From contig CP099848.1 of the NCBI GenBank assembly GCA_030062745.1, forward strand, positions 4,164,685 to 4,228,684: DNA of 64,000 nt, in the 5' to 3' direction. The notes under the pieces were generated by a model, which searched no databases, was not told the origin of the DNA, and saw nothing but the letters and a program-made list of their open reading frames with translations. This document shows, piece after piece, positions 838-41,290 of this stretch; positions within the stretch are counted from its first letter, which is position 1, and every line of letters begins with the position of its first letter. The stretch comes from Capitulum mitella. Its lineage: Eukaryota; Arthropoda; Thecostraca; Pollicipedomorpha; Pollicipedidae. Both the position numbers and the translations under genes were made by a program.

Positions 838-1330
838 AAACTGGTCCAGCGGCCGTACAGAGGTCTGAGCTGGTACAGCAACCAGACACTGCCATTCAGA
901 CTGGTCCAGCTGCCGCACACTGCGAGAAAACTGGTCCGGCGGCCAGACACTACGGTTGAAACTGGTCCAGCTGCCAGACACTGCGGTCCACACTGGTCCA
1001 GCAGTTCGACACTGTGGTTCAAACTGGTCCAGCTGCCGGACGTTGCGGCCCCGCCTGGTACAGCGGCCGAACACTGAGATCCAAACTGGTCCAGTGCCCG
1101 GAGACTGCGGTCCAAACTGGCCCAGCGGTCCGACACCGCGGTCGAAGCTGGTACAGTGGCGGAACACTGGCGTCCAGACTGGCTCAGTGCCCGCACACAG
1201 TGGTGCTAACTGGTCCACAGATTCGACACATCATTCGGGTGCATTTGTCCGGCAACCGGACGCAACGGCACCAATTGGTCTAGTGGCCTGAGGCGTCGAT
1301 ACAAATCGCTCCAGTAACTGGACCGGACCG
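838..1330. repeat. GC-rich minisatellite, ~31-bp unit
   Basis: The core CTGGTCCAGC(T/G)GCC with a following GACACTGCGGTCCAA recurs at 841, 870, 901, 931, 962, 993 and 1024, a period of 29-31 bp, and continues in decayed form to about 1330. Units have diverged by substitutions and small indels. Several frames on both strands stay open across the array, which explains the overlapping open frames here; none looks like a protein. Confidence 0.85.
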
Positions 1331-3051
1331 TCCGAACAGGTCAGTGGGTCGGGCACATGAGTCCGCACTGCTCCGGCGACGAGACACATTGATGTGGTTC
1401 AACCTGATTTGATTGTCGCTTACACCGGTCTGAGCTGGTGCAGCGGTAGATCATAATATCAGTCCACCAGGACTGATCGACCAGGGGAGCTGTCACCATA
1501 ACCAGGGGGTCTCCGGACCAAATCTAGGAAGGTGCCAGCGGGAGGACAAAGCAGAAGGAGGCGTCTGCAGCCTTTCCTCCTCCTGGTGGTGTCCCTGTGT
1601 CACGGCTTTTTGACTAGCCCCGGCGGCCGGCGGCGAGGTCGGCGGGGTCCGGGACTCGGCGCACGGTGCGGTTATTGGCTGTCCGGCGGCCGGCGCGGCC
1701 CCTCCCCGGAACATCGATCACGGCTGATCTGAGGACGAGCCCCACGGGGGCCGTGTACCGAGCCTGGGCGGCGCGACAGCACGGCGCCGCCGCCGCCGCT
1801 CGGTCGCCAAGGAGCCGCCGAGTGGTTGATCACAACCCGCCGGTCAACAATCGCGGAAGAGGACTGTCCGCTTGACACGGGGCTTTCCAGTCATGGCAGC
1901 ACTGAAAGACGGGCATAATGTTTGGATGTATGAATGTGAGTAACGCTGGCGACCTCGCTTGTTTCCGTCCCTGCTTCTCACAGGTCGGTGTTATCAATAA
2001 TGCGTATCAGACATATGTTTCGGAAAGAGATCTGAGTTAGGAAATGAAAGTTCAAGACCTCAGTGCAACCTCAGATTTGAAACTCGACGTTTCCTCTTCA
2101 TTTCGCGCTGACAGGTAGATATGTATGTGTCAATCTGCCTTTGAAAGTAAACAGAAGACATTTTAACAATTTCGAAAAGGAGTTCAGCTATGTGAGATAT
2201 AAAACGAGTGATCAGTGACCATGAAAACAGATAGCCTTGTTTACGCCAGAAGAAGCTTGGTGTTACACGCCGAAGATATCAAGTAATATTCGACTTCAAG
2301 TTTCGGCATTAAAGAGCCCAGGAGCCAATCAGTATCATGTTTGACTTTATGAAGTCGCGAACTGCCAATTCATAAAGATTTAATACCCTAATCTATGGGC
2401 AAATATCGCACAAATTAAACCTGAATGCAAAATGAAATTGCCTGAAAGCACTTCACTGTTCAAACCTTATTGCACCATACTGAATAAAACATTCATATTC
2501 CCAGAACACTCTGGATAATAAAAAATGCAGCATATGGTCCCTTGGCACAGGAGATGTATCTGATGATGGATTTAATGCTAATTTTCGTGCCGGTGCTCAG
2601 CTTTCGGCTGGCCCAAACCAAACTGTGCGACATTGGCCATCGCCGATATGAATAAATGATAAACAGGTCCCAGGAGTCATCCCCAGTGGAGACGACGTCC
2701 TCTATCAGGGCTTGTGAAGCCCCCGCCGTGGCGCAGTCCAATTTACCGCCCCGATAACCTTCCCGGGGACCCTCCCGCCGGCCAGCTTCGTCCACGCCCA
2801 CGCTCACGTCTCCACGGGGGCCGCAGCACGCGTCACCGAGCGGGCCGGAGCGCACGCTGAGCACCACCAGCCGCCGTCCAGGTCCGCGCCGGAGCACGCT
2901 CTCCCGGCGGCGGCCGCTGCCCGGCGCCCGTCGCCCGCCGACGCCGCAGACGCACTACCAGACCGCACCGGTCGGCTGGAGGCAGGGCGGGGCAGCGGCG
3001 CGCGCCACAGGTGGCCGCCGCCCTGGCGGTCAGCGCTGGTAACGGCGCTCG
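1331..3051. other. Gene-poor tract with two CpG-rich islands
   Basis: Islands of high CpG content lie at about 1590-1880 and 2690-3050, separated by an AT-rich stretch (1900-2690) with no recognisable gene. They could be promoter islands or decayed minisatellite. I see no first exon with a good donor that I would defend. Confidence 0.4.
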
Positions 3052-10860: not shown

Positions 10861-11304
10861 CAGAAGGAATTTCGGGGTGAGGAAAAGAATAGAAAATAAT
10901 AGCGTATCTGACTAAAAGGTTATAACCATGGACGACAAATGCTAAGAAAATTATTCCAAACTGTGATAATTTGTCTCGCACAAAATGTGCTAATTTAAGT
11001 GTTTCAGAAGTGGCATCAGAGCACCACATGACAGTAGATCTGAACGTTCTGAACAACTGGTGGCGTGGTTTGATGCCTGTTTTTTTTTTGTAATCCTTAT
11101 TCCTAAATAAAAAATGCGTCCGTTTAATTCACGTGGTTTACAACAGCAGTACACGATTTTACATTCTGTCTCCCATTTCTTCATACACTTGTTGCCCATC
11201 CACCGGTTTAAACCGGCTGAAATGCATGTCAGAACTACTCTCAGTCGATCCCAAGTGTCAACGCCAAACATCAGGTATCTGATTCGCAACTCCTGTCGCC
11301 GGAG
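10861..11304. other. 5' flank of gene A; nothing else recognised
   Basis: AT-rich intergenic sequence upstream of the first WAP gene. No TATA box that I would defend. The part conserved with gene B starts only at about 11290. Confidence 0.4.
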
Positions 11305-11318
11305 TGACGTTAAGGTCA
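11305..11318 (+). promoter_or_regulatory. Conserved upstream motif TGACGTTAAGGTCA, gene A
   Basis: This 14-mer is identical upstream of gene A and gene B (23152-23165), 81-82 bp before the ATG in both, at the edge of the duplicated block. TGACGT resembles a CRE half-site, and TTAAGGTCA resembles an extended nuclear-receptor monomer site. Function is inferred; recent duplication alone could explain the identity. Confidence 0.4.
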
Positions 11319-11385
11319 GAGTCGACCGAATATGAGGGGCCTGCGTGGAGCCGACAGCTCAGTGCGCTTCAGCGCCGCCGAAACG

Positions 11386-12628
11386 ATGGGAAAGCTGCGG
11401 CTGCTGCTGCTGGTCCTGCTGGGAGTGACCGCCTCCTCTGGAGATGGCGACGTGGGCAAACCGGTGCCGCTGCCGCCTGTTCTGGGTAAGACTGGCTAGA
11501 ACACCTCTGCCGCCTGGTCAAGTTCCCATCTGCGAAGGCACATCAAAGGTGGAAGGGGGGGGGGGGAGAGACGTCGCGCGTTCCTTCCATTAGGAAAAAA
11601 GTTGACAGTGATCACAAAAATTATGGGTTCGGGAGACTAGATAACCATGTCACATATGTTTCACCTCCGTAGCCTCCCGAAATGTCTTAGGTGCGTTATG
11701 TCCAACTGACAAAAGTCCGTTTTCAGTCGCGGAACTGAAGCCGGGGATCTGCCGGAAGATTCTCAGTCCGAACCGGATTTGTCCGTTGAAGACAGACAAA
11801 TGCCAACAGGATTCAGACTGCAAGGGCATCAGGAAGTGTTGCCCACAAGCCTGTGGACTGAGGTGTACATGGGTTAGGCCCATATGTATCCCCAGTTGTC
11901 AGGCAGGACACAGGTGTCGCTGGAGAAGAATGAAATGTGACAAGGCCCCATGCCCACGTAAACCGACCTGCGTTAAAAGGCGGCAGAGACTGAGGGTCAG
12001 AGCCGTGTGCTCCCCGCCCTGTCGGAGGGGCTGGAAGTGTCGCATGAGGAGGACCAGGTGCGGGAAAGCACGGTGTCCCCGTCAGCCGACCTGCGTAAGG
12101 AGGAGGTATGGACTGAGGTGGAGGCTGAGGCCAAGGCCCGTATGTTTCCCCAGTTGTCAGAAAGAACAGGTGTGTCGTTGGAGGAGGACCAAATGTGGTA
12201 AGCTCCGATGCCCTCGCCAACCGACGTGTGTGAAAAGGAGACCGAGGCCCGTATGTTCCCCCAGTTGTCAGAAAGGACAGGTGTGCCGTTGGAGAAGGAC
12301 CAAATGTGGTAAGCCTTCATGCCCTCGCCGACCGACGTGTGTGAAGAGGAGGTCACGACTGAGGTGGTGGCGGAGGTGGAGACGGAGACCAGGGGCCGTA
12401 TGCTCGGCCATTTGTCAGAAAGGACAGGTGTGCCGTTGGAGGAGAATCAGATGTGGTAAGACCTTATGCCCACGCCAACCGACGTGTGTGAAGAGGAGAC
12501 CGAGGCCCGTATGTTCCCCCAGTTGTCAGAATGGAGAGGTGTGTCGCTGGAAGAGGGCCAAGTGCAACAAGACCCCATGCCCTCGCCAACCGACATGTGT
12601 GAAGAGAAGGTCAAGACTGAGGGGGTAG
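11386..12628 (+). CDS. Gene A: secreted WAP-domain protein with six Arg-rich six-Cys modules (2 exons)
   Basis: Exons are 11386-11485 and 11727-12628, with intron GTAAG...TTTTCAG in phase 1. The spliced product is 333 aa. Residues 1-18 form a signal peptide (M-G-K-L-R then a Leu/Val-rich core ending T-A-S-S). About residues 40-83 are a WAP four-disulfide core: K-P-G-x-C, then eight Cys with the family spacing C-x5-C-x5-C-C-x3-C-x3-C. WAP domains are typically secreted protease inhibitors or antimicrobials. Six modules C-x3-C-x5-C-x6-C-x4-C-x5-C follow, each with a C-R-W-R-R-type core, C-P-R-x-P-T-C-V and a K-R-R or R-R-R cluster; spacers are R-P-R-P or longer Arg/Trp-rich. The mature protein must be strongly cationic. 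An in-frame upstream ATG (11332) exists, but in gene B the equivalent ATG is out of frame, so 11386 is preferred. I do not recognise the module family. Confidence 0.88.
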
Positions 12629-13088
12629 CAGGAGGTGGAGACGGGGGCAGAAGCCGGACCCCGCACGTGCCCCCTTCCTGAAACTTCAAAGGTGCAGCTG
12701 GAGGAAGACGGCGTGCAGCGGGGTCAGGCGTCCCCTGAAGCGGACCAGTGTACCGTAACCTGACGTGACCATCACCAGGAGCGCAGCCTGAGGCGATCTC
12801 TGGGGGTGGACGTCGGGTGGAGACGGCAGTCCGGGCCAGAGATGGCCGCGACTCGCCGGGCCACCCGGCTTTTCTGTCCCGGCCGGGCTGAACGGCGGGC
12901 AGTGCGCCGGACCGCCGGACGGGATCACGGACGGGCTTTACCGTCCAGCACGTGACCCGGCCCCTGGACCTGGCCCAGCGGCTGCCACACCGGCAAACGG
13001 CGCCGAAACGGCCCCAGAGCAACGGCGTGTCGTGTGGGGTCTCCGATTCTTGCAGAACAAAACGGGAATGTAGTGCAAATGTAATAAA
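12629..13088 (+). other. 3' UTR of gene A with polyadenylation signal
   Basis: From about 12690 to 13056 the sequence is clearly homologous to the 3' flank of gene B (about 26595-26940), GC-rich, without a conserved reading frame. AATAAA at 13083-13088 is the likely polyadenylation signal, about 455 bp after the stop. The equivalent sequence at B has been replaced beyond 26940. Confidence 0.65.
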
Positions 13089-14001
13089 ATATATGAGCTC
13101 CACCACGTTATGTTCGATATTAGATGATATCTGTACTGTTAAAATTGTTCTCGTTGTTCATGACTGCTGGCTGAGCTATCCAGATTTTCATTGCGTGTTT
13201 ACAATGTGGGATTAACGTGTGCCAATATACAGGTTCTGCGGGTCCACCATTAAAGTTTTTGGGAGAATGGCGTACTCCGTCATTGCGCAAGAAAACGTTT
13301 AATTTTATCAATGTATATCGGAAATCATCGTACTCCGTGTAAGAGTAAAATGGAGACACATTTGCTGAAAATCTGCTCAAGTGAAAAGTACGCATTTAGT
13401 GGACACCGATGAAAATAACTAAGCTGCCCTATTTATTGCTACATTAGCAATTTGTTCATCCGAGAGATCTCGAGAACCCCGTGTCACCCACTGTCACAGG
13501 CTCATGTCCATCAGAAGATAGGTCACCCACCTATTTGACTTTTAATGAATGCATGTCAACAAAAGCTGGAGCGTGTGCCAGTGCTTGTCAAAAAAGGTGT
13601 TGTCAAACAGGCAGCGTTTTTCGAATTCCCAGCTCATTCTCAGCAAAATACTCCCAAATATCGGAAAATTGTCTGACCTGAGTTGAGGTAATCCGTAATG
13701 AGATGCTGTTTTTCGTCTTCTGCCAGAAGTTACCCTGCACAGGAGACTTTCCTCGAAGAAAGAGGATACAGATCATTTGATATGTGTTTTTTTTTTAACT
13801 AGAGGCAAATCGACGAGTTACACGGTTGGCTGGGACCAAAAGCGAAATGTCATACATATCTTTTTCTGCTGTAACTTGTTCTGCAAAAACAGAGGCAACG
13901 TAACACACCTGTTGCATAACACTCCCTGCTTCTTTGACAGACTGTTTATTCCTACTAAACTGCTTCCTTGTCATGCAGGTTGAAAAATAGATTGTGCGCC
14001 T
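13089..14001. other. No gene recognised
   Basis: Downstream flank of gene A. A CGAGAGATCTCGAGAACCC stretch at 13460-13478 resembles the motif found inside the ends of the TTAA elements, but no TTAA or inverted end can be paired with it. Confidence 0.4.
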
Positions 14002-14904
14002 TTACGCAGTCGAAGGATCCCATGTCCAAAAAGCTGCACGTTCACATGGATGGCATCTTGCCACCACTTGTTGGTCCGGGATAGCGTTGTGACTTTGCAG
14101 CCCACCACAATATTTGGCACCTCCAACATAAACAGTTACTGTGTCGAAGGCCTCAATGGCAAAGGGGTACACCTCCCCACGTGCATCTCGCACACACCAG
14201 GCTGAAACTGTTGGCATGCAAAACAGCCACATATATCGAGTGACACGTATCACGAACTCCTACCCCTCCCCCAATTTTCAGCCTCCTAGCCGTTGTAATT
14301 TCCCGGCAGTGAATGAATGGTCTTAATCACTTAAGCACCTTGCGCTTCACGTGCAAGTTGCATCCTCGTTTCGGTCTGAATTTATCGCAGTTCATTGTCC
14401 AGTAGCCCTTCCGCCTTCTCAAGTCAACACTGCCTCAAACTGAGCCGTTCGCATCGCGGCAATTGACCCATAAGAAACAAAGGGGTGTCAAAGGGACGCA
14501 CGCGAGCTGCACGTGACACAAGACTTGGTGAACCCGTTGAACGCTGCTCATCATATGAGGTACCCACGGATAGTCCTGGTGCTGATCCGTTTACCCATAA
14601 AATTTCAGCCGCACAGATCACGGTTTCCGTCACTCGGGGGGTCCCAAGTCCAAATCAAAACACATGCCTGTGGATCGCCACGTGGACTGCATGTGGGTGC
14701 TGACCACAGTAGCGAATACCGGCAAGTCGGGCTCATATTGTCACCAAGTCTTGAGTCAATAACACCCGCCGTTTGACCTGCATCCGTGATTAATTGCATT
14801 CTGCAGAGGTCCGGCTCGCCCCCAGTGGCGCATGTCACACCATGAATCGTTTCGAGACTCACATCATAATTTGTCCGCCGAGGTGGCGCACCTGCTGGCG
14901 CCAC
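14002..14904 (-). other. Possible pair of related exons of an unrecognised gene
   Basis: Two minus-strand open segments, 14002-14253 and 14605-14904, each end in a similar W-T-W-D-P motif after a Cys-containing stretch. The first is preceded by a plausible acceptor (CCAACAGTTTCAG on the minus strand) and reads V-T-V-Y-V-G-G-A-K-Y-C, loosely like the last strands of a fucolectin or F5/8-type lectin domain. The resemblance is weak, and both could be decayed copies or chance. Confidence 0.2.
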
Positions 14905-16343
14905 TTGCGTCGCGCTTGGCAGGCTCGTTCGGGCGCTGGACGTTCAGAAACTTGGACACACTGACAAACACCTCGATCTGAACTTTTCCGGGCGACCGCC
15001 AAGTATGAAATCTCCCTCGTTAAAAGCGTGCAACACAGGTTTTCAGCTCCTATGATTTTCAATGACGTAACCTGCGGTTGTGAGGATTCAATGACCTGAG
15101 GTCAGGTCAGATGGTTACAAAATGTAATGTACGACGAAATGGGTATGGAATACATTTATCATTCACTTCTGGTGAGGCATGATAGTTGTACGTTTCAGTT
15201 TATACTCTTGTGGGCTTTGAAATTGCATGACCTTATGTGGCCTGGCATGACGTGGTATCATTTCAAAGGCCACTTGTCATTTGGGACGCCGTGTAATTTC
15301 ATCAAATGTTTCAAGACAATGCGTGGAGTTGGCCTGGTATCTTTACTTTTCATTGTTTCCGAGATACAGACAATTATTTAATTGACGTAGAATGGCCTTG
15401 CATAGCTGTGTTGACCGTAAGAGCACTTACTTAAGCGACATCAGGCTGTTTTATGACCCCAAACGTGTTTCAATACTTCGTTTTGTTCTGTGTCACCCTG
15501 GTTTTCCGAACAAAACAGACACATTTTTCTTGCTATCGTCCTTGACCTTACCTAGCCTGACTTGACTTGTTCTGGAGTTCCGTGTCATTCAAGAACACAC
15601 CAGCTTAATTCTGACAATAAAATGGTGTTTGTTTAGCACTCACACCTTTGCCCAGTCACGAACTACGAATGTTGTAAGATCTGACCTTAGTTGATCTGAT
15701 ACGACCTTAGATGACCTATATTATGGTTTCCCTGATAAAAGTTGTCCTACGTGTCCAAACATCTGCAATGATGTGTCCAAAACGTATGCAGGCAGTAACA
15801 ATACCTGAGTGCTAAAATCGGTTGTAGTTAATTTCCAGATATGCGCAAGTCAATCAAAGGACATCCACATGAAAGACCACATCCCAATCTAAAACCGACC
15901 GCTTTAATTGCTGCTATGGGCATTGGTCTAGCTACAATCATTTCTTAAAATAAATTCTGAATTTGGGTAATTCCGGACAACGCAGGCTAATTTCAGACGG
16001 CCTTTCAAATATACGCCATCCATGTCTGATACCAGCGGTGCTAGCTGAGGCTAAGCTGAATTTTCCTTGGTCAGTCACAAGCTAGGTATCTACCCGTGTG
16101 CCAGCCTGCCACCGCCTCTGCTATTGACGTCGGTTTGCCGCGTCACCGCTGCTGTTGCTGCCGCCGGGCACCAGAAGTTGCCTGGTCCATTCGTTGCAAT
16201 ACACGCATGCTAGCCAGTTCTTACGTACCACCGCGCATTTCTATTAAAAATGGTTTTAATAAAAATGGATTGCGTTGCACAGATTAAAACGCAGGTTTTC
16301 GAGTATTATCGAACGGCGTCCAATACCACCACAAAGGCGGTCC
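14905..16343. other. AGGTCA/TGACCT-rich tract, no gene recognised
   Basis: From about 15060 (TGACCTGAGGTCAGGTCA) to about 15720 (TGACCTTAGTTGATCTGA) the sequence carries repeated nuclear-receptor-like half-sites, as the R elements do, but I cannot find terminal repeats. It may be an older, end-less relative. 15960-16343 is unique. Confidence 0.4.
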
Positions 16344-16347
16344 TTAA

Positions 16348-17549
16348 CCCTATTCCCGGAAGGCTAGACGGTATGGTCGATTCCCGGCAGGGGGGGGGGC
16401 GGATTCGGCCCCCTGAGATCTCGAGAACTACACATCCAATTTCATCGCAACAAACGGCAATCGATTTTCCACGACGCGAACTACATTTCACAACAAGAAA
16501 TCTTCAAAATTTTGAGAAGTGTGGATACAGGGGGGCAAAAATTTCAAAATCAGGGGTTGGTCTTCTTATGACTCCGTCGTTTATGGACCGCTTTCCAGGA
16601 AACTGGCATGAATCGAGATATTATGGATAGGACTTTTACCGTTGGTACACACATCTGAAATTTTGAGAAAATTCATGGGCGTTCACAGGGTTTCAAAAAC
16701 AGGAGGATTAGTTTTCCAGCAAATGAATGAACAAGACAGGCAAAAACACTTTTTTGGCTTCTGCTAGTCATATTATGTTAAAGAAGTACAAATTGCATTA
16801 CAGTGTTTGTATAATGTTAGCATAGGCGTTGCCAGGGACATGAAAAAAGGGGGAACTGTCATGGTCACACGTTCTTCAGATCAACTTATGACCTTTGACC
16901 TTAAATGACCTCCAGTGACCTTGGGTCACTTGGAATGATCTCGTGTGCATTTAATGTTATCTGCAAACGTTTTCAATCATTTGAATTCACTCTATTGCAA
17001 AAATTTTACTTTATGGTTATTGTGATACAGGCTACGCGCACTGACATTTTAGGTCATAGCTCCGTGACCCGACCTGATAGCAAGCTGAAACTTGATACAC
17101 AAGTAGAGGGCACCTTTCTACTTCATGTATATTCCGGGTTTGGCATTTCAAAAAGAGCGCCGAAATTAATACAGTAAAACCAAATTTTGACTTTCGACCT
17201 TGACCTGACCTTGTAAAGTGATCTCAGATAAACGAAATTGTTACTGCACATTGCCCAACTATTTAGCTATACATCCATATAAAGCTCTAAGTTCTATCTT
17301 AAAAACGTTGTTTTTGGCAGACATTTTCCTTTTACCCTCAACATGGTCAAAAATGGCCTGATGTGCCTCTCAAAAAACGTTGCCTGGCTCCGCCCCTGAG
17401 CAAAAAAGAATTTTGAAATTTTGTCACAGCACGTAGAAAGAATAGCTAGGAAAAGTCACCAAGTTTTGTGAAGCTGCGTTAAAAAGCCTGGAATTGGCAA
17501 GCAAAAAAGCCGAGGGGGGGCGGATTCAGTTCCCCTGCCGGGGATAGGG
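16348..17549 (+). mobile_element. R1 family TTAA-flanked transposon, copy b
   Basis: TTAA at 16344-16347 and 17550-17553. The left end is CCCTATTCCCGG; the right end CCGGGGATAGGG has one mismatch to the inverted repeat. The left subterminal G-tract with CGGATTCGGCCCCC is retained and followed by GATCTCGAGAAC; the right palindrome has lost its C arm. It is collinear with copy a throughout. No transposase. Confidence 0.92.
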
Positions 17550-17553
17550 TTAA

Positions 17554-19815
17554 AAGATAGCTGATGGCGAGGCAAAAGGTCCAGCCATTTGCAGCCACTT
17601 CTAAAATGAAGTGAATGCACAAACAGAGTGTGATATGATGACTGCGCATATTACTACTTGTGCATTGTTCAATGTCACGTAGCAGAAAATCGGAACTTTT
17701 AAAAACAGAAAGAGTGAATTCAAAAAAAAAATATTCGCCTGGGACCTGCAGCTCCTCGTATAACAAGGCAAAAGGGATATTGGATCCTTGCCAATTCCAG
17801 AAATAATATTTTGGACATGATTCTAACCGTGGCGAAGAAATGAGGGTGTATGAAACTATCTTCTGTCCGATATTACCCAAAGCTTCCCCACCTGAGGAGA
17901 AGCAAATTACTTTTTGACAATGGAAACAGTCCTGGCTTTTTTTGGACTGTTCCGCACTCACGATCAGCTTAAAAGACCGTCAGATTTGCTTTCATTGCCA
18001 ACAAATTTTTGGAGGCATCGCATGACCTTGCTTGACCACTCCATCCTATTATACTACCTGATGGTGAAAATACGCGTTCATTATTCATCAGCTTTGACGA
18101 GTTTTCCATTGTTGTCACTCTTATCTCCATAGCTCTCTTAGTTCTTCAGATCAGGAGGCAGAGGTTCTCGAGAACACCTCCTCGCGGTAAGCCATGGGCG
18201 ATTCGGGTGCCCGGGAATAGCCAGGTTAGGTTGCCGGTGCACGTGTCTTCGTCTTGGGATTTTCGAATCGCTGCGTGGCACTTTTGAAACCTCTGGAAAT
18301 ATTCGACATGTGGAGTTGTCTGGGAGTTAAAACAATATCTGGACAACTGCATTTTGTAAAAATGCAATTTTTCAGAGCAAGGTATTGCCGATGTGGATCG
18401 AATTTCTTTTATGATGAACCTGAGTTTAATCCATAGGTCTGTGCAATTCGGGATTCCATCATCCCTAAGCACCGAGACAGTCGACGGAGACGAGTGAATG
18501 AGTTTCAAGAGCTGCAGAGATAAAAATGGTTTTAATAAAACGTGGATTGTTCAGAGATGCACTTTGCAGAGATACATTTTGTGAGACAAGCTCGAACGTG
18601 GAAGTCCGTGGGCGCCACCACCGAGATGCAGTGTCTGAACCAGTGCAAGATCCATTACTGTGTTCAGATCCTGACACGAGTGAGTCGTCGAGTACGTGCA
18701 TGAGTTATCCGTGTCACCGCCCTGGTCCGGCCACATTTCCCAAGATTTCGACGGAAACGCCTCTCTTTGGCGCGTCATTTCTCTAGGTATCGTGTTTATA
18801 CTCCAACACTGCAATAATACTGTTCCGGTCGCAACATCTGTATGTGCAGCGTGCAAAAAAGGACAAAACCATGCCAGGCACGATCAATAAACAACAAAAA
18901 CGAACGGCTGGAATGCGCGCAGTGCTTATCGCAGGCGGAACGTACAGCGGCCGCGCTCGCTAAGAGGGCTAGATCGCCGAGCCAGCGCAAGAGCTCAGCC
19001 GGCCAGACCCGACGTAGCCGTTACAAAAATAGATGCTTTAAACAGGATTTTATTCAATTAAAGGATATCTCGAGATTTTGTTCATCTATTTTCATGCATT
19101 TCGTCTAGTGCATTATCGTTCAGGTATCTGGCCCCTAGGAGTGTTGTGTTTTTGCACATAGCGTCAGGGAAAATGCTAATATGTTTGGTGCGATATAGGT
19201 AAGTTATAGTATGTACATAAAATAAGCGTTAATTTGCTACCAGATGGTAACGTCTTTGCTCAGGAAGGGAAGAAAAGAAGAATTTTCATCACTGTTTGCA
19301 GAAAGCTAGCTTTGATTTGCGCAACATAAATAATCGAATGAATTAGGCATCCATAACCAAGAAATTTCCCCTAATTTCGACCTATACACCTGAATCCCAA
19401 GATCCGTGCCGGTTTTTCCCCGAAAAGGGTGTCGTCACATCGTGAACTGTGCGTAATGCCCGTCCTTGTGGTAACCATCTGTCATAACCATCTGATCATA
19501 ACCGCCAGGGCACCATCCAGTGGCTCGTGCAAGGGCACCGAATGACCTCGAATGACCTCGGTGCGCCCCTTAGCCCCAATAATCAATCTAGTAGTGCGCG
19601 CGGTAATGACTAGTGCTGGAAGTGGCTACCCGCAACCCGAAGACCCCTTCACCTGCCGAGACTTCGACTTTGAACAAACTCATCGGCAACAGAGTACTAA
19701 ATCTAAAGAACACACCAGTGACCGCCACCCCGGCATGTTTCAGTCAGACTCCCCGAGCGATGGTGTTCACGCTCGGATTGACATGGCGGCGGGAAGTCCG
19801 GCCGAGACTAGCTGC
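17554..19815. other. Gene-poor stretch, nothing recognised
   Basis: Mostly AT-rich unique sequence. Open frames at 18146-18508 (-) and 18526-18786 (+) have no domain I recognise. The ~25-bp stretch with GGTTTTAATAAAA at 18524-18540 also occurs at 16249-16264, a short shared repeat. 19500-19815 becomes GC-rich towards the retroelement. Confidence 0.4.
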
Positions 19816-21485
19816 TCAGCATAGTGGGCGGGGCGCGGGCGGCGCTCCGGCGCCGGTGGCGGTGGTTTGCGGTGAGGGAACGGCCGCTCGGGAGGCGGAT
19901 ATGGTGACGGCGATGCGGCCCCGCGTCGGAGACGACACCGTAGCGGTTCCGACGCTTAAAAGCCGGACCTTGGACTGCCACCTGGCTCCCGATGTAAAGG
20001 TCATGCAGGTGACCGGGGTGTCTGTTACAGTGCGATTCGCGTAGTCTTGACGTCTGGACGCCTCCTTCTCGACCTCGTCAGCCGCGCGTTGCCAGCATGC
20101 GGCGGATGATCGCCGGTGAGCTGGGATCAAGTCGTGGGCCGGACAGCCGAAGAGAATCGGGGTGGGCGATCCTCCGTCCGGGCCAGGAACGTTGCAGTGC
20201 AGCAACATGGCTCTGGTCCACGCGTCTGCGCTGAGGGGACCACTGCTCGGCCGCCAGCAGCGGACGATGATTTCCTGAGCCGTTTCGACGGCTGCTTCTG
20301 CTCAGCCGTTAGACTGCGGACAGAGAGGGAAGGAGGCGCGATGTGGGACATCCCACTGGCGCAGGAAGTCACGGAACAGCCAGGACGCGAAATGCGGACC
20401 TCGATCCGACCACGGGACGTCCGGTAGCCCGGTACCCCAGCGGTGTAAAGCATGCTCCGAGTGCTGCTGACGATCTTGCCTGCAGGCGCGCTCGTCCCGA
20501 GGCCGTAGGCCGTCAGGCATCCGATGAGCCTGTCCACTGTAATCAGAAACTTGGGGCCTCCGTAGTCGGCCACGTCCATGGCCACGTGCTGAAACGGCCG
20601 TATTGGCTGTGAACCGGTGGTGACGCTCCTCCCGGAACTGGAATAGCGCATCGGGATGACACGTTTCGCAGCCTGGCGCGTGGCGGCATCAGTGGCACGC
20701 TCCACCTCAGGCCAGTACTCGACGAGGTGTGTGTGGACCTTCGTGGTGATTTCAGTTCGCAGGAACCGGGGCATGACGACGCGACATCCATATAGCACCA
20801 GGTCGTCGTCGATCGGCAATTGATCGTGTCATGCGAGAGTTGCAGGTAGTCACCTGCTACACCCGTCATTACCGCGCGCGCCGCGATAGAAAACAACGCG
20901 GTGCGGAAGCCGTGACGACGCGCAATACACATTGTTCCAGCACTCGACCGTGTGAGAACCTGAGCATGGCATAGGTAGCCGAGACCGTTCGAGTGACTTG
21001 CACCCGTGGTCGGTCGTCGGGGGTCGAAAAATGCATACTTCTCGACTGGCGCTGAGAGACGCAGATACAAGGCACGCCGCCGTCGAGCTGGAGATGCCGC
21101 AGCGGTGGCCTGGGTGTTCCCAAAGCGTCCGCTCTTGTTTTCCGGCCTACCTCATTTCGACCTCCAAGTCGACCACTGCCCATTAGTTCCGATTCTGAAC
21201 TGAAAATCGCTGGACGAGCCGGACAGTCCACGCTTCCAGCGGCTGAAACTGCGCCTGGGTGATGCGCTTTTACGACCCGCTGGACAAAGGAGTCCCAGCA
21301 CCAGGCGGCCGACGCGCTGTCCAGGAACCCTGTGCCACTCTCCGGGGAGGGGGATGAGGTGGCAGAAGAAGGTAAGGTCGCACGCGTGTGTTCAAACATC
21401 ACCTCGGCCGCAGAAACAATCGGGCAGAGCATCCGCCTCGACGAAATGCGGCGGTGAGCCCAGGACGACTCAAAGACGCGTCTCC
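19816..21485 (-). pseudogene. Decayed Ty3/gypsy retrotransposon pol (RNase H tail, integrase, C-terminal tail)
   Basis: Read on the minus strand. Near 21440 V-E-A-D-A-L-P-D resembles the A-D-A-L-S-R that ends gypsy RNase H. Near 20819 D-D-D-L-V-L-Y-G then V-V-M-P-R-F-L-R matches the segment before the integrase zinc region, followed by W-P. Near 20570 M-D-V-A-D-Y-G-G-P-K-F-L-I-T-V-D contains the first catalytic Asp. In another frame near 20440-20300 S-D-R-G-P-H-F-A-S and C-P-Q-S-N-G match the second Asp and the downstream core. A TGA stop replaces the residue after P-Q-S-N-G. Near 20180 G-S-P-T-P-I-L-F-G-C-P continues into the usual tail. At least one frameshift and one nonsense codon show it is dead. 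No LTR identified. Confidence 0.8.
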
Positions 21486-21489
21486 TTAA

Positions 21490-22685
21490 CCCTATTCCCG
21501 GCAGGGGGGCTGAATCCGCCGCCACTCGGGTTTTTTGCTTGCCAATTCCAGGCTTTTCAACGAAGCTTCACGAAACTTGGTGACTTTCTCTAGCTATTCT
21601 TTCTACGTGCGGTGACAAAATTTCAAAATTCTATTTTGCTCAGGGGCGGGGCCAGGCAACGTTTTTGGGAGACACCTCAGGCCATTTTTGGCCATGTTGA
21701 GGGTAAAATGAAAATGTCTGCCAAAAACAACGTTTTTAAGATAGAACTTAGAGCTTTATATGGATGTATAGCTAAATAGTTGGGCAATGTGCATATGTAA
21801 TTTTGTTTATCTGAGGTCACTTTGCAAGGTCAGGTCAAGGTCGAAAGTCAAAATTGTTTTTTTTCGCTATCATTTTTGCGCCGTTTTTTTGAAATGCCAA
21901 ACCCGGAATATATATGACGTAGAACAGTGTCCTCTACTTGTGTATCAAGTTTCAGCTTGATATCGGGTCGGGTCACGGAGCTATGACCTAAAATGTCAGT
22001 GCGCGTACCCTATATCGCAATAGCCATAAAATAAAATTTTTGAAATATAGTAAATTCAGATGATTGAAAACGTTTACAGATAATATTAAATGCACACGAT
22101 TCCATCCCCAGTGATCCCAAGGTCACTGGAGGTCATTTAAGGTCAAAGGTCACAAGTTGATCTGAAGAACGTGTGACCATAACAGTTCCCCCTTTTTCAT
22201 GTCCCTGGCACCGCCTATGCTATCATTATACAAACATTGTAATGCGATTTGTACTTCTTTAGCATAACACGACTAGCAGAATCCAAAAAGGTGTTTTCGC
22301 CTGTTTTGTTCATTCAGCTGTTAGAAAACTAATCGTTTGAAACGCTGTGAACGCCCATGAATTTTCTCAAAAATTCAGACTTGTGTACCCATGGTGAAAG
22401 CCCTATCCATAATCTCTCGATTGATGTCAGTTTCATTGAAATCGGTCCATAAACAACGGACTTATAAGAAGTCCAAAAATACCCCCCATTTTGACATTTT
22501 TGCTCCCCTGTATTCACACATTTTAAAATTTTGAAAATTTCGTTTCATAAAAATGTAGCTCACGTCATGGCGAATCGATTGCCGTTTGTTGCGATGAAAT
22601 CGGATGAGCAGTTCTCGAGATCTCAGGGGGGCCGAATCCCCCCTGCCGGGAATCGACCATACCGTCTAGCCCTCCGGGAATAGGG
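21490..22685 (-). mobile_element. R1 family TTAA-flanked transposon, copy c, inverted, abutting the gypsy fragment
   Basis: TTAA at 21486-21489; the other flank is TCAA (22686-22689), one base from TTAA. The element is the reverse complement of copies a and b: its low-coordinate end is CCCTATTCCCGGCAGGGG with the Gly-tract side, and its high end is CCGGGAATAGGG. The interior is collinear with the other copies, including the nuclear-receptor-like half-site block (TTGACCT-type, here as AGGTCAAGGTC) near 21830. Confidence 0.92.
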
Positions 22686-22689
22686 TCAA

Positions 22690-23037
22690 AGGAACTGTCG
22701 AGACGTAGTTTCCGTCGGCGGTGGACCTTTCCCAGCAGCTGCGTTGGTATTGCGCTGTACTCGAGCAAATGTCGGGCACGCCCCTCTCCGCGGACGGCAA
22801 CCCCTTCTCGATAATTTCTTGCAACAGGCGCATCCCTGAGTCGCTCTGGACTGTCCGACTCACGTCGTCGGGGCGGAGGCTCCGTCCGATTGTTTCTAAG
22901 ACCGGACAAAGGATGGCGTGGTCTAAGGTCCGTTTTATAAATTCATATCTATAAAGAGGAACGTGTGTTTTTAATCCACCCGGATGAGAACAGGAAAACA
23001 AGATTTTGTACTTAAGCTTCCATTTGCTACCACTCAT
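22690..23037 (-). pseudogene. Possible Ty3/gypsy linker fragment
   Basis: Minus-strand frame reading S-D-S-G-M-R-L-L-Q-E-I-I-E-K-G-L-P, then Y-Q and A-D-G-N-Y-V, resembles the spacer between RNase H and integrase in gypsy pol (D-x-x-L-x-x-L-x-x-x-I-x-x-G-x-P). It adjoins the R1 copy that separates it from the integrase fragment, so the R1 could have landed in one retroelement; but the segment order does not fit perfectly, so it may be a second fragment. Confidence 0.4.
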
Positions 23038-23151
23038 ATTTTTCGTTCGGGTGTAAATACGGCTGAAACTGCTGCCACAACTAATGTCAAGCGGTTATGA
23101 GTGTCAAAGCAAAAGCAGGAAGCGTTTGACTCATCGTTCCTGCCCCTGGGG

Positions 23152-23165
23152 TGACGTTAAGGTCA
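23152..23165 (+). promoter_or_regulatory. Conserved upstream motif TGACGTTAAGGTCA, gene B
   Basis: Identical to 11305-11318 and at the same distance (82 bp) from the ATG. See the gene A entry for the half-site reading. The flanks left of about 23137 no longer align with gene A. Confidence 0.4.
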
Positions 23166-23318
23166 GCGTAGACTGGATATGAGGGGCCTGCGTGGACCGA
23201 AACAGCTCAGTGCGCTTCAGCGCCGCCGAAACGATGGGAAAGCTGCGGCTGCTGCTGCTGGTCCTGCTGGGAGTGACCGCCTCCTGTGGGGATGGCGACG
23301 GGGGCAAACCGATGCCGC

Positions 23319-23627
23319 TGCTGCCTGGTCTGGGTAAGACTGGACCGGACACCTCTGCCACTTTGCTGGGTGAGGCTGGTTCGCACGTCTTTGCCGCCTG
23401 GTTCTGGATAAGACCGGCTCGCACGCCTCTGCCGCCTGATCTGGGTAAAACTGGACCGGACACCTCTGCCGTCTGGTCTGGGTAGAACTGGACCGGACAC
23501 CTCTGCCGGCTGGTCTGGGTAAAACTGGACCGGACACCTCTGCCGGCTGATCTGGGTAAAACTAGACCGGACACCTCTGCCGGCTGATCTGGGTGAGACT
23601 GGACCGGGCACCTTTGCCGTCTGCTGT
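23319..23627 (+). repeat. 37-bp minisatellite derived from exon 1 / splice donor of gene B
   Basis: Eight units of CTGCCGCCTGGTCTGGGTAA-AACTGGACCGGACACCT type. The first unit spans the last ~15 bp of exon 1 and the donor. Donor-equivalent GT dinucleotides fall at 23334 (true), 23370, 23445, 23482, 23519, 23556 and 23593; in the unit near 23407 GT is GA. Gene A has one unit plus a partial second (about 11471-11520). So the array grew out of the exon-intron junction in B. Confidence 0.9.
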
Positions 23628-24985
23628 CCAGTCCTGGCGGGGGGCACCTGTTCGCTCGGTCCCCACGGCAGCAGATTTGAGATCGCGATCCTGCCGTACC
23701 TCAAAGGGTGGTCGCCGAATTAGCACGACCCACTCAGTTTTCGGACCACGTCCGTCCCCGGTGCCGCGTTCGAACTACGGTTGAGGACAAAGTCATCAAC
23801 CTTGACTTGAACAATAGCGATACTGGTATGTTGTTAGTTCTAGTTATAAGGTATATGTTCATTAATTTCAAATGACCCTTGGTATTCCATAAGTTTTACC
23901 ACGGAGTATTTTCCCATGCTCCGATAAGGACTTTTCGTCGTATTCCATGCACATGCTGGGAGCGTCTCACAGCCAGCCACAAGCCGATGCCTGTGAACAG
24001 GTGCCAAGTGAATCACCTTAGGCCCCGGTTGTGCGTGTTTAGGGTTTCAGGGTACGTCACAACAACTGGGTCTCGCAAACTAAGCGTTGCTGTTTCCGTG
24101 TCTTCTGTGTGAATGCGTATCCTTTCCCATCACCCTGGACTGCTTGACCGAACGCTCTGTGACTTCTGTATTCTTGTCCATTCATTGTTCATGTGTTTTT
24201 TTCCAGCTATCCGGCCATTTAAGCTCCCGTTGTCTGCATGGCCGTTTTATAGCTGCATGCTGCTTGTAACATGTGGTCATTAGGGAAGATTGGAATCAGC
24301 CGTCTCCACTCAGTTGAGACAATGCTATTTAACCTCTCTTACTATCCTATTGTTAACACCAGCCTGGCAAAAATGCCGCCTTGTGTCGGTTTTTTGAATT
24401 TGCATGTCCAATGGGATTGCAGTCCGTGCCTGCGTAAACGTCAAGACGGATCTTCTGTATACAACAGTTATTCGTTCTAAACCATGTAACACAGACGCCA
24501 GCAATACATGCGACTACTGGCTCGCCACGCACTCCGCGCTGTCCTTGAAATCAATCTCTTGCGATACGTGGCAGAGCCACATTCTGTTTGCCTCGGGCGA
24601 TTGGAAATCGACATTAAGCCAACTGCCCAGTCCGTTTGGGCATTATTTTTTTCAAGGTCCAAACGGCCACGGCGTCGTCTGAATTCCCGATCACGCAAGA
24701 CGAGCGGACGGCGACTTCCAGAACAATCTGGCAATACCCGGACGGCCACGACCTTACGCGACCAGACCTCGAATTTTCCCACGAGCCAACTAATCTCTAA
24801 CACTGGGCCGACATTAAGTGGTCTTGATTGGTGGACCGGATCTGACGTCACGCTTATTTCGCAAACACTGCGATAAATCGGACACGGTGCACAAGACACA
24901 GGAAAGCACGACGTTCACAAAGCACTTCCATTGTCACGTTTGCGATACAAAATGAGTGTTGAGCATCACACGAAAAAGGGGTCGG
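23628..24985. other. Insertion-like segment within intron of gene B
   Basis: This ~1.36 kb is absent from the intron of gene A, where the sequence passes directly from the partial repeat unit to the AAGGCACATCAAA block (11533; B 25000). I see no TTAA, terminal repeat or coding domain in it. Either B gained it or A lost it. Confidence 0.6.
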
Positions 24986-26521
24986 AGTAGCCAGCTGCAA
25001 AGGCACATCAAATGTGGAAGAAGGGGGAGGGGGAGGGCGAAGATCCGGGCTTCTTACAGGAGAAAAAGAGCTACTGATCACAAAAACCGTGGGTGGAGGA
25101 GACTAACTAAATACCACTGTGACATAAGTTTTAGCTCCGCGTGCCTTCAGAAACGTCCTAGGTGCACCCTGTCCAACTGATAAATTACCCGTTTTCAGCT
25201 CCTGGGCTGAAGCCGGGAGTCTGCCGGAAGATTCTCAGTCCGTACCGGACTTGTCCGCTGAAGACGGACAAATGCCAACAGGACTCAGACTGCAAGGGCA
25301 TCAGGAAATGTTGTCCGCGAGCTTGTGGACTGAGGTGTACTTGGGTTAGGCCCATATGTATCCCCAGTTGTCAGGCAGGACACAGGTGTCGCTGGAGAAG
25401 AATGAAATGTGACGAGGCCCCATGCCCACGTAACCCGACCTGTGTAAAAAGACGGCAGAGACTGAGGGTCAGAACCGTGTGCTCCCCGCCCTGTCGGAGG
25501 GGCTGGAAGTGTCGCATGAGGAGGACCAAGTGCGGGAAAGCACGGTGTTCCCCGTCAGCCGACCTGCGTAAGGAGGAGGTATGGACTGAGGTGCAGACGG
25601 AGGAGGAAGCTCGTATGTTCGCCCCGTTGTCGGAAAGGACGGGTGTGTCGCTGGAGGAGGACCAAATGTGGTAAGACCAGATGCCCTCGCCAACGGAAGT
25701 GTGTGAAAAGGAGGTCAAGATTGAGGCGGAAGTGGAGACGAAGGCCAAGGCCGTTGTGTTCCCCCAGATGTCAGAAAGGACAGGTGTGTCGTTGGAGGAG
25801 GACCAAATGTGGTAAGACCCGATGCCCTCGCCAACCGACGTGTGTGAAAAGGAGACCGAGGCCCGCATGTTCCCCCAGTTGTCAGAAAGGACAAGTGTGT
25901 CGTTGGAGGAGGACCAAATGTGGTAAGACCCGATGCCCTCGCCAACTGACGTGTGTGAAAAGGAGACCGAGGCCCGCATGTTCCCCCAGTTGTCAGGAAG
26001 GACAGGTGTGCCGTTGGAGGAGGACCAAATGCGGTAAGCTTTCATGCCCTCGCCAACCGACATGTGTGAAAAAGAGGCGAAGACGGAGACGAAGATGTAG
26101 ACGAAGACCAAGGCCCGTATGTTCGCCCAGTTGTCGAAAAGGACAGGTGTGTCGTTGGAGGAGGACCAAATGTGGTAAGCCTTCATGCCCTCGCCAACCG
26201 ACATGTGTGAAAAAGAGGCGAAGACGGAGGGGAAGATGGAGACGAAGGCCAAGGCCCGTATGTTCCCCCAGTTGTCAGAAAGGACAGGTGTGCCGATGGA
26301 GGAAGACCAAATGTGGCAAGCCTTCATGTCCTCGCCAACCGACGTGTGTGAAAAGGAGGCGAAGACGGAGGCGAAAATGGAGACGGAGGCCACGGCCCGT
26401 TTGCTCCACCCATTGTCAGAAAGGACTGGTGTGTCGTTGGAGGAGGACCAAATGTGGAAAGACCTTATGCCCTCTTCGACCGACCTGTGTGGAAAAGAGG
26501 CGGAGACCGAGACTAAGATAG

Positions 26522-26940
26522 ACACCATGGCGAAGACGGGGGTGAGGGCGGAAGCCAAAGCACGTATGTCTTTAGTAAGGAGGGTCAGAGGTGCCGCCGG
26601 AGAAAGACGGCGTGCAGCGGGGTCAGGCGTCCCCTGAAGCGGACCAGTGTACCGTAACCTGAAGTGACCATCACCAGGAGCGCAGCCTGAGGCGATCTCT
26701 GGGGGTGGACGTCGGGTGGAGACGGCAGTCCGGGACCAGAGATGGCCGCGACTCGCCGGGCCGCCCGGCCGTTCCGTCCCGGCCGGGCTGGAACGGCGGG
26801 CAGTGCGCCGGACCGCCGGACGGGATCACGGAGGGGCTCACCACGTGAGCCGGCCCCGCGGCTGCCATGCCGGCAAACGACGTCGAAGCGGCCTCAGAGG
26901 AACGGAGTGTCGTGTTGAGGGTATCAGACCCCTCGCAGAG
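26522..26940 (+). other. 3' flank of gene B conserved with gene A
   Basis: About 26595-26940 aligns with 12690-13056 at gene A, GC-rich and without a shared open frame, so it is likely 3' UTR. Homology stops where the CAGA-rich simple sequence begins. No AATAAA lies close; the first clear one downstream is at 28181. Confidence 0.6.
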
Positions 26941-40496: not shown

Positions 40497-41290
40497 AGGA
40501 CAGAGAGCTGATCCCGTGTCGTCGGCCCGAGGAGCGAGGGCTGATCCCGTGTGACCGGCCTCAGGACCGAGAGTTGATCCCGTGCAGTCGGCCTGAGGAC
40601 CGAGGGTTGATCCCGCGTCGCCGGCCTGAGGGCCGAGAGCTGATCCCGTGTAGTCGGCCTGAAGACTGAGGGCTGATCCTGTGTCGCCGGCACGAGGAGC
40701 GAGGGCTGATCCGGTGCGGCCGGCCTGAGGACCGAGGGCTGATCCCGTGTAGTCGGCCTGAGGACCGAGGGCTTGATCCCGTGTCGCCGGCCCGAGGAGC
40801 GAGGGCTGATCCGGTGCGGCCGGCCTGAGGACCGAGGGCTGATCCCGTGTCGCCGGCCCGAGGAGCGAGGGCTGATCCCGTGTAGTCGGCCTGAGGACCG
40901 AGGGCTGATCCCGTGTAGTCGGCCTGAGGACCGAGAGCTGATCCCGTGTAGTCGGCCTGAGGACCGAGAGGTTGATCCCGGTGCGGTCGGCCTGAGGACC
41001 GAGGGCTGATCCGGTGTCGCCGGCCTGAGGACCGAGAGCTGATCCGGTGCGGCCGGCCTGAGGACCGAGGGCTGATCCCGTATAGTCGGCCTGAGGACCG
41101 AAAGTTGATCCCGTGTCGCCGGCCCGAGGAGCGAGGGTTAATCCCGTGTCGCCGGCCCAAGGACCGAGGGCTGATCTTGTGTCGCCGGCCTGAGGACCGA
41201 GAGCTGATCCGGTGCGGCCGGCCTGAGGACCGAAAGCTGATCCGGTGCGGCCGGCCTGAGGACCGAAAGCTGATCCGGTGCGGTCGGCGG
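40497..41290. repeat. 33-bp minisatellite, about 24 units
   Basis: Unit GGCCTGAGGACCGAGGGCTG plus ATCCCGTGTCGCC. Units are of three main kinds by the variable junction: TGTAGTCGG, TGTCGCCGG and GTGCGGCCGG. Because 33 is a multiple of 3 and units lack stops in most frames, long frames run through on both strands (up to 345 codons on the minus strand, reading G-P-Q-A-(D/G)-(Y/D/R)-T-G-S-A-L). Indels near 40770 and 40970 shift between these open frames without stops, so coding cannot be inferred. Confidence 0.93.

Follow-up and report, generated by a model that had tools for sequence, protein, structure and literature searches.

Paralogous WAP-domain genes with tandem arginine-rich six-cysteine modules in Capitulum mitella: anatomy, relatives and a candidate antimicrobial role

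The two genes and their divergence

The present analysis concerns a stretch of 64,000 nucleotides from Capitulum mitella (contig CP099848.1, positions 4,164,685 to 4,228,684; hereafter the window), in which two genes on the forward strand, gene 1 and gene 2, each encode a WAP four-disulfide core followed by a tandem array of Arg-rich modules with the cysteine spacing C-x3-C-x5-C-x6-C-x4-C-x5-C. The 64-kb window contains 14 instances of this strict pattern, six in gene 1 and eight in the gene 2 region, while 20 first-order Markov sequences of equal length contain none. Both WAP domains are members of PF00095 (33.7 bits in gene 1 and 34.3 bits in gene 2, against a cut-off of 20.8). The first-pass annotation of this DNA had described a paralogous pair of WAP proteins with Arg-rich modules, about 12 kb apart, and was right in this: Pfam recovers the WAP domains, the gene starts are separated by 11.8 kb, and the copies are homologous over 11291-12937 and 23138-26838, interrupted by ~1.6 kb of additional intron in gene 2.

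Gene 1 encodes 333 amino acids in two exons with canonical splice sites, an intron of 241 nucleotides and no internal stop, and its protein begins with a hydrophobic N-terminus, which a short spacer separates from the single WAP and the six modules. The WAP and six modules expected of it are borne out by Pfam and the strict pattern, and a likely signal peptide is predicted from a hydrophobic run (mean hydropathy 3.0 across 10 residues). The protein holds 97 Arg+Lys (29%) against 9 Asp+Glu, with 20.4% Arg, 13.2% Cys and an isoelectric point (pI) of 11.4; the precursor of 38.9 kDa carries 44 cysteines and would measure ~37 kDa without the signal peptide. The features of gene 1 are as follows (a slash marks the splice site; modules are placed by the strict six-cysteine pattern).

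11291..11385, + strand: conserved 95-bp upstream stretch shared with gene 2, 5' end of the homology
11386..11485, + strand: exon 1, signal-peptide-like start MGKLRLLLLVLLGVTASSG..., donor G/GTAAGA
11727..12628, + strand: exon 2, acceptor TTTTCAG/TC, WAP plus six modules, stop TAG
11750..11866, + strand: WAP four-disulfide core, first to last cysteine (PF00095, E 4.6e-8; cysteine pattern)
11885..11971, + strand: module 1
12008..12094, + strand: module 2
12143..12229, + strand: module 3
12254..12340, + strand: module 4
12401..12487, + strand: module 5
12512..12598, + strand: module 6
12686..12835, + strand: 3' flank with an additional relic module (judged by eye); 97% identity with 26585-26734 past gene 2
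13083..13088, + strand: possible poly(A) signal AATAAA (from the sequence)

In gene 2 the second module is broken by one extra base at ~25548, past which the other frame runs open as far as 26521 and includes seven intact modules. Six or nine module copies had been announced for the pair; six stands for gene 1, while nine is reached in gene 2 only if the frameshift is disregarded. The break could mean that gene 2 became a pseudogene recently or that the assembly is in error here, the single sequence being compatible with either. The features of gene 2, with modules again placed by the strict pattern, are listed below.

23234..23333, + strand: exon 1, signal-peptide-like start, donor G/GTAAGA
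23318..23623, + strand: 37-nucleotide minisatellite across the splice donor into the intron (repeat detection, sequence)
25199..25674, + strand: exon 2 as assembled, with WAP, one intact module, frameshift at ~25548 and premature stop
25222..25338, + strand: WAP core (Pfam E 2.8e-8; cysteine pattern)
25357..25443, + strand: module 1, in frame
25520..26521, + strand: shifted open frame with the remainder of the array, seven intact modules, stop at 26521
25616, 25757, 25868, 25979, 26120, 26261 and 26402, + strand: starts of the modules in the shifted frame

The gene 2 intron spans 1865 nucleotides, as compared with 241 in gene 1, and the 37-nucleotide minisatellite is part of its additional ~1.6 kb. 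Several minisatellite units contain a donor-like GTAA, gene 1 having about one unit; if alternative donors were used there, each unit would displace the reading frame by one position. An antisense open frame of 484 amino acids lies over the gene 2 array (25371-26825, minus strand) and is probably a by-product of the codon composition of the array.

Divergence between the copies is uneven. The 5' portion, 11291-11511 against 23138-23359, is 90.6% identical (blastn), and the upstream stretch may include a promoter, with a TATA-like ATATGAG and an initiator-like (Inr-like) CTCAGTG picked by eye. The WAP part shows a synonymous divergence (dS) of 0.46 and a nonsynonymous divergence (dN) of 0.06 (dN/dS 0.12), modules 1-2 show dS 0.07 and dN 0.03 (dN/dS 0.38), and comparisons from module to module give 0.18-0.34, all of these ratios being rough as the copies are homogenised. 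The similarity of the 150-nucleotide 3' flank (97%) exceeds that of the WAP synonymous sites. Because WAP, modules, exon 1 and 3' flank diverge so unevenly, this patchwork suggests gene conversion between the copies. The module repeat units measure 111 and 141 nucleotides (147 once), differing by the length of the Arg-rich linker, and past each stop codon (12628-12760 and 26521-26665) stands an apparent relic of one more truncated module, in which the six-cysteine pattern is lost. Low dN/dS, the retention of Arg14, Gly10 and Trp15 in the modules (see below) and the loss of the pattern in the relics argue that constraint acts on the protein, in WAP and modules; exon 1 shows none.

Elsewhere in the window, 20 other hand-picked open frames had no Pfam match at E 0.1, and Rfam and tRNA scans returned none. 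Broken frames between the two genes (20127-21567, minus strand) resemble, by eye, the integrase of a gypsy/Pao-type retrotransposon and had no Pfam match. A 33-nucleotide minisatellite of ~24 copies occupies 40497-41280, with antisense open frames of up to 360 amino acids on the minus strand.

The six-cysteine module within and beyond the genome

When aligned, the 14 modules have a mean column identity of 82%; Arg14 never varies, and Gly10 and Trp15 hardly do. They were collected by their cysteine pattern, and the invariant cysteines and fixed spacing are partly due to that selection. A Cys-Arg-Trp-Arg-Arg loop is conserved in each module. Linkers present in full are 8 to 20 residues long; Arg+Lys account for 49% of linker residues in gene 1 and for 64% in the tail of gene 2, against 27-29% in the modules. 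AlphaFold places strands at residues 11-17 and 27-33 of a single module. The first-pass annotation had recognised neither the module nor its combination with WAP. As regards the module this stands, since none of the named common domains of Pfam and NCBIfam matched it, no curated model for it was found there, only WAP scored above cut-off in the window proteins, and a PDB sequence search with the module profile gave no significant relative. An inhibitor-cystine-knot toxin was considered and rejected, the tau-theraphotoxin match at E 0.0036 dropping to E 7 with the profile; antistasin, lustrin, TIL and EGF were likewise rejected for want of a Pfam match, the Pikachurin EGF reaching merely E 7.3.

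The combination fared differently. In the genome searched (477,042,490 bases, 16 contigs, the window being C10:4164685-4228684), the gene 1 protein found eight matches, seven in the window genes and one in a locus on C7 (L012), and the gene 2 tail found five, all inside the window. A WAP family search gave at least 100 matches, with 143 candidates scored; the loci taken were the best 30 WAP matches plus 14 hand-picked ones, chosen partly for long open frames, which is a non-random sample. These loci (L005-L061) hold 48 distinct WAP cores, from which eight with fewer than 20 open residues downstream were removed, leaving 40. The motif C-x2-4-C-x2-G-x2-C-x5-13-C is present within 45 residues past the WAP in 22 of the 40 cores, several of the 22 being near-identical paralogues, and in 20 of 38 when the two window genes are excluded, while shuffled WAP tails gave a mean of 0.01 and a maximum of 1 in 200 rounds. 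The first part of the window module, C-x3-C-x2-G-x2-C, is common to these other WAP-linked modules. The WAP-plus-module architecture is therefore not new, as it recurs within this genome; in spirit this tells against the novelty first claimed for the combination, although the domain itself has no name.

Among these relatives, L053 and L054 carry a six-cysteine module with the exact 3-5-6-4-5 spacing directly past the WAP. The window module profile matched three L053/L054 modules, aligned by hand on their cysteines, with an hhalign score of 35.5 (probability 96%, E 8.9e-9), and none of 120 controls with permuted non-cysteine columns scored as high (maximum 28.7). Single modules of L053, L054 and L038 and the last one of L057 are modestly similar to the window modules (mean z 2.3-3.6), 0.3 to 4.6% of shuffles with fixed cysteines scoring as high. 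The family has a second Arg-rich member in L038 on C9, where an upstream open frame with a signal-peptide-like start is followed by a WAP and three basic modules. L012 has a WAP, two four-cysteine modules and an Asp-rich tail, and none of 1000 cysteine-fixed shuffles of its module part scored as high against the gene 1 modules; the exon limits and gene structure of L012 and L038 were judged by eye. The tail reads DVDD...DDDDDDD (locus positions 1225-1911, minus strand, C7 near 5.83 Mb), and L012 may represent an acidic counterpart to the Arg-rich genes.

Like the window genes, L038, L053, L054, L012 and L018-L022 place modules of the C-x2-4-C-x2-G-x2-C-x5-13-C type after a WAP. Those genes that were read differ in having one to three modules per WAP, or modules alternating with several WAPs, and in being less Arg-rich, except for L038, and without a long homogenised array. 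L018, L019, L020 and L022 form gene pairs (C13 near 12.76 Mb and C2 near 4.65 Mb) with three WAPs and four-cysteine modules in a single open frame of 442-507 amino acids; the members of the C13 pair are highly similar and lie on opposite strands ~10 kb apart.

Beyond the animal, a hand-written module pattern found four bacterial loci (L001-L004). Two of them, L001 with a Kazal domain and L002 with three Kunitz domains, come from metagenome-assembled genomes of Deltaproteobacteria and carry a six-cysteine module with the spacing 4-5-6-4-5, while L003 and L004 show shorter or irregular cysteine motifs only. The L001/L002 module shares with that of the window six cysteines, four of five loop lengths, a Gly between C2 and C3 and a Pro after C5; it differs in a first loop of 4 instead of 3 and is not Arg-rich. 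Pfam gave no family match over the modules of L001, L002 and L012. Direct homology of window and bacterial modules could not be accepted as established: cysteine-fixed permutations scored equally high in 6 of 200 and in 7 of 120 trials. Against the first modules of L053 and L054, the bacterial modules reached z 4.9-6.9 with none of 400 cysteine-fixed shuffles as high in each case; a further L054 module was less even (z 2.8 and 4.7), the last L038 module showed little similarity (z 1.5 and 0.4) and the last L057 module none (z -1.4 and -0.1). The putative tie between window and bacteria runs through L053 and L054, in a chain that is not uniform, and the module looks like a recurrent, unnamed unit of animals and bacteria alike.

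The L001/L002 module profile also matches centipede RhTx (PDB 2mva; E 7e-6), the match covering cysteines one to four. PDB matches of the L054 module were complex I subunits only and were taken as chance. Viral contigs scanned with the window and bacterial profiles and a genome contig collection scanned with gene 1 gave no relative; likewise, tblastn found nothing for the L001 module in plasmids and phages or for gene 1 in plasmids.

Weighing the possible functions

PpCrus-SWD1 of Pollicipes pollicipes is the closest characterised protein found, an 'atypical' type III crustin with a WAP followed by a long C-terminal region with ten cysteines (PMC11678330). The recombinant protein inhibited nine tested bacteria at a minimal inhibitory concentration (MIC) of 16-64 uM, bound bacteria and pathogen-associated molecular patterns (PAMPs), damaged the bacterial barrier and inhibited the alkaline protease of two bacterial species (PMC11678330). 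It resembles gene 1 in its signal peptide, single WAP and cysteine-rich C-terminal extension. With this antibacterial barnacle WAP protein and the bacterial modules beside Kazal and Kunitz domains at hand, the combination can no longer be called unprecedented.

The products of gene 1, and of gene 2 prior to its disruption, are predicted to be secreted, disulfide-rich and extremely cationic WAP-module proteins, most likely polyvalent crustin-like antimicrobials, a reading to which we assign a rough probability of 0.55. The starting point would have been an ancestral WAP protein with few modules, to which this lineage may have added Arg-rich linkers and tandem duplications of 111 and 141 nucleotides. 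The basic linkers would join the modules so that many Arg/Trp loops stand along one rigid chain, and these loops could bind negatively charged microbial surfaces and damage the membrane. More tentatively, the pair may represent a lineage-specific 'poly-knot' antimicrobial, in which a WAP head carries up to nine near-identical Arg/Trp loops on polybasic linkers, acting either as a polyvalent membrane-binding fibre or as a precursor of six-cysteine peptides, with an origin in coding minisatellite expansion and maybe with acidic-tailed WAP-module partners.

Several observations weigh against an antimicrobial pair of this kind. The AlphaFold model of a single module is of moderate quality (predicted local distance difference test (pLDDT) 77.5, predicted template modelling score (pTM) 0.40), and the gene 2 product as assembled has 191 amino acids, with its stop at 25674. 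Some decay of the pair is possible, as gene 2 is broken and both stops precede the relic of one more module. Exon 1 differs between the copies by 5 amino-acid-changing and 1 silent substitution in 33 codons (ratio 2.5). Within the genome, 18 of the 40 WAP cores are without such a module, the gene 1 search at E 0.001 or better missed L038, L053 and L054, and the acidic tail of L012 indicates that the WAP-module family is not uniformly cationic. The last four paired cysteines of PpCrus-SWD1 (117, 122, 128 and 137) give C-x4-C-x5-C-x8-C, the spacing class of many WAP-linked modules in this genome, with the pairs Cys117-128 and Cys122-137 amounting to C1-C3/C2-C4, but this comparison was made by the residue numbers of the paper and not by alignment, and that protein is merely mildly basic (pI 8.1, as against 11.4 for gene 1) (PMC11678330).

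The main rival is a structural one: the polycationic, disulfide-rich array would attach to acidic polymers of cement, cuticle or shell plate, with the WAP shielding the matrix or restraining the growth of crystals. This is conceivable, though we regard it as doubtful. A five-WAP protein is reported from the shell of A. amphitrite (PMC4519255), two WAP proteins are listed for the cement of that species (PMC5099703), and the limpet shell contains WAP plus antistasin-like proteins (PMC3374290). The acidic-tailed paralogue L012 could moreover serve as a counter-ion partner. Calcium carbonate matrix proteins are, however, usually acidic, and the conserved loop resembles the Arg/Trp-rich loops of antimicrobials; an antimicrobial role remains our best bet ahead of a matrix role. 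It is unlikely that the protein is a peptide precursor whose linkers are cut past C6 by proprotein convertases (at Cys-Val-Lys-Arg-Arg and similar sites) to release each module, for although adjacent Lys/Arg pairs follow the last cysteine in all 14 strict-pattern modules, the modules are near-identical and the linkers of 8 to 20 residues separate modules of fixed spacing (fixed by the selection pattern), such dibasic pairs are found within the modules too (CRWRRTKC), so that the sites are not specific.

A decaying pair, with gene 2 a pseudogene, gene 1 a poorly expressed remnant and the arrays persisting as minisatellite-like repeats, appears quite improbable. It would account for the frameshift, the stop of both reading frames ahead of a relic module, the detection of the arrays as tandem repeats and the repeat-rich surroundings, in which the 20 other open frames lack a Pfam match; yet the reading frame of gene 1 is uninterrupted and its splice sites are conserved, the gene 2 tail is open behind the break with its seven intact modules, dN/dS is 0.12 in the WAP and 0.18-0.34 among modules, and the extra base, beside a short C run, could equally be an assembly error. 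We give very little weight to the idea that the protein inhibits serine proteases by means of its WAP loop, assisted by the modules as additional inhibitors, despite the relatedness of the WAP to elafin (E 6e-4) and the presence of similar modules next to Kazal and Kunitz domains in bacteria. The modules match no inhibitor family, and judged by the P1 position of elafin both WAP copies have proline where an elafin-type inhibitor residue was looked for. PpCrus-SWD1 does block alkaline proteases of two bacteria, and a Met next to the second cysteine of the WAP is described as the mark of inhibitors (PMC11678330), but both window copies have Pro after that cysteine (CPLK) and not Met, for which reason a canonical WAP inhibitor is unlikely.

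Under the favoured crustin-like reading the two genes would provide an antimicrobial candidate in a group of animals from which few antimicrobials have been characterised. In any case, what appeared to be an orphan module turns out to belong to an unnamed recurrent disulfide module past many WAPs in this genome, resembling a bacterial one found next to protease-inhibitor domains. Building a curated model for this module would allow many proteins to be annotated, and the pair offers a clear case of a WAP protein acquiring a long Arg-rich array through tandem duplication.

Comparison with known proteins

The usual crustin is cationic, of 6-22 kDa, with twelve conserved cysteines and the WAP at its C-terminus (PMC11678330). 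The gene 1 product is cationic, yet has 38.9 kDa, 44 cysteines and its WAP on the N-terminal side, and is not a standard crustin. A C-x4-C-x5-C core is found in the modules of the eggshell membrane CREMP proteins (PMC3068167), in tandem, and singly in RhTx, both of which differ from the window proteins in having four cysteines per module and no WAP, and CREMP also in another last loop. The CREMP / SP75 repeat C-X4-C-X5-C-X8-C is not seen in the window modules (3-5-6-4-5, six cysteines), and the window module profile matched neither CREMP nor RhTx at E 10. By analogy with the PpCrus-SWD1 pairs and with the pairing of RhTx, which we take to be of the same type, the comparison suggests that the module is a small disulfide knot with the pairs C1-C3 and C2-C4, and C5-C6 by elimination. 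Perlwapin, the limpet WAP-antistasin shell proteins and, presumably, lustrin A are extracellular and carry WAP or other cysteine-rich domains like the window proteins, but have several WAPs or other partner domains; Pfam found no antistasin or lustrin domain in the window proteins.

At the level of titles and abstracts, with few subscription papers, the literature yielded no Arg-rich WAP protein with a tandem six-cysteine array, and a text search for the module spacing returned 13 seemingly unrelated papers, PMC5577568 among them. PpRcys1 of Pollicipes, with a net charge of +4.5, was set outside this family, going by its text. PpCrus-SWD1 itself has 138 amino acids and at most one or two irregular modules with no array, where gene 1 has six regular ones. 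The window proteins, and relatives elsewhere in this genome, nevertheless fit a PpCrus-SWD1-like class, defined here as a single WAP followed by C-x3/4-C-x5-C modules, and the pair has the appearance of the PpCrus-SWD1 plan enlarged by an array and made strongly cationic.

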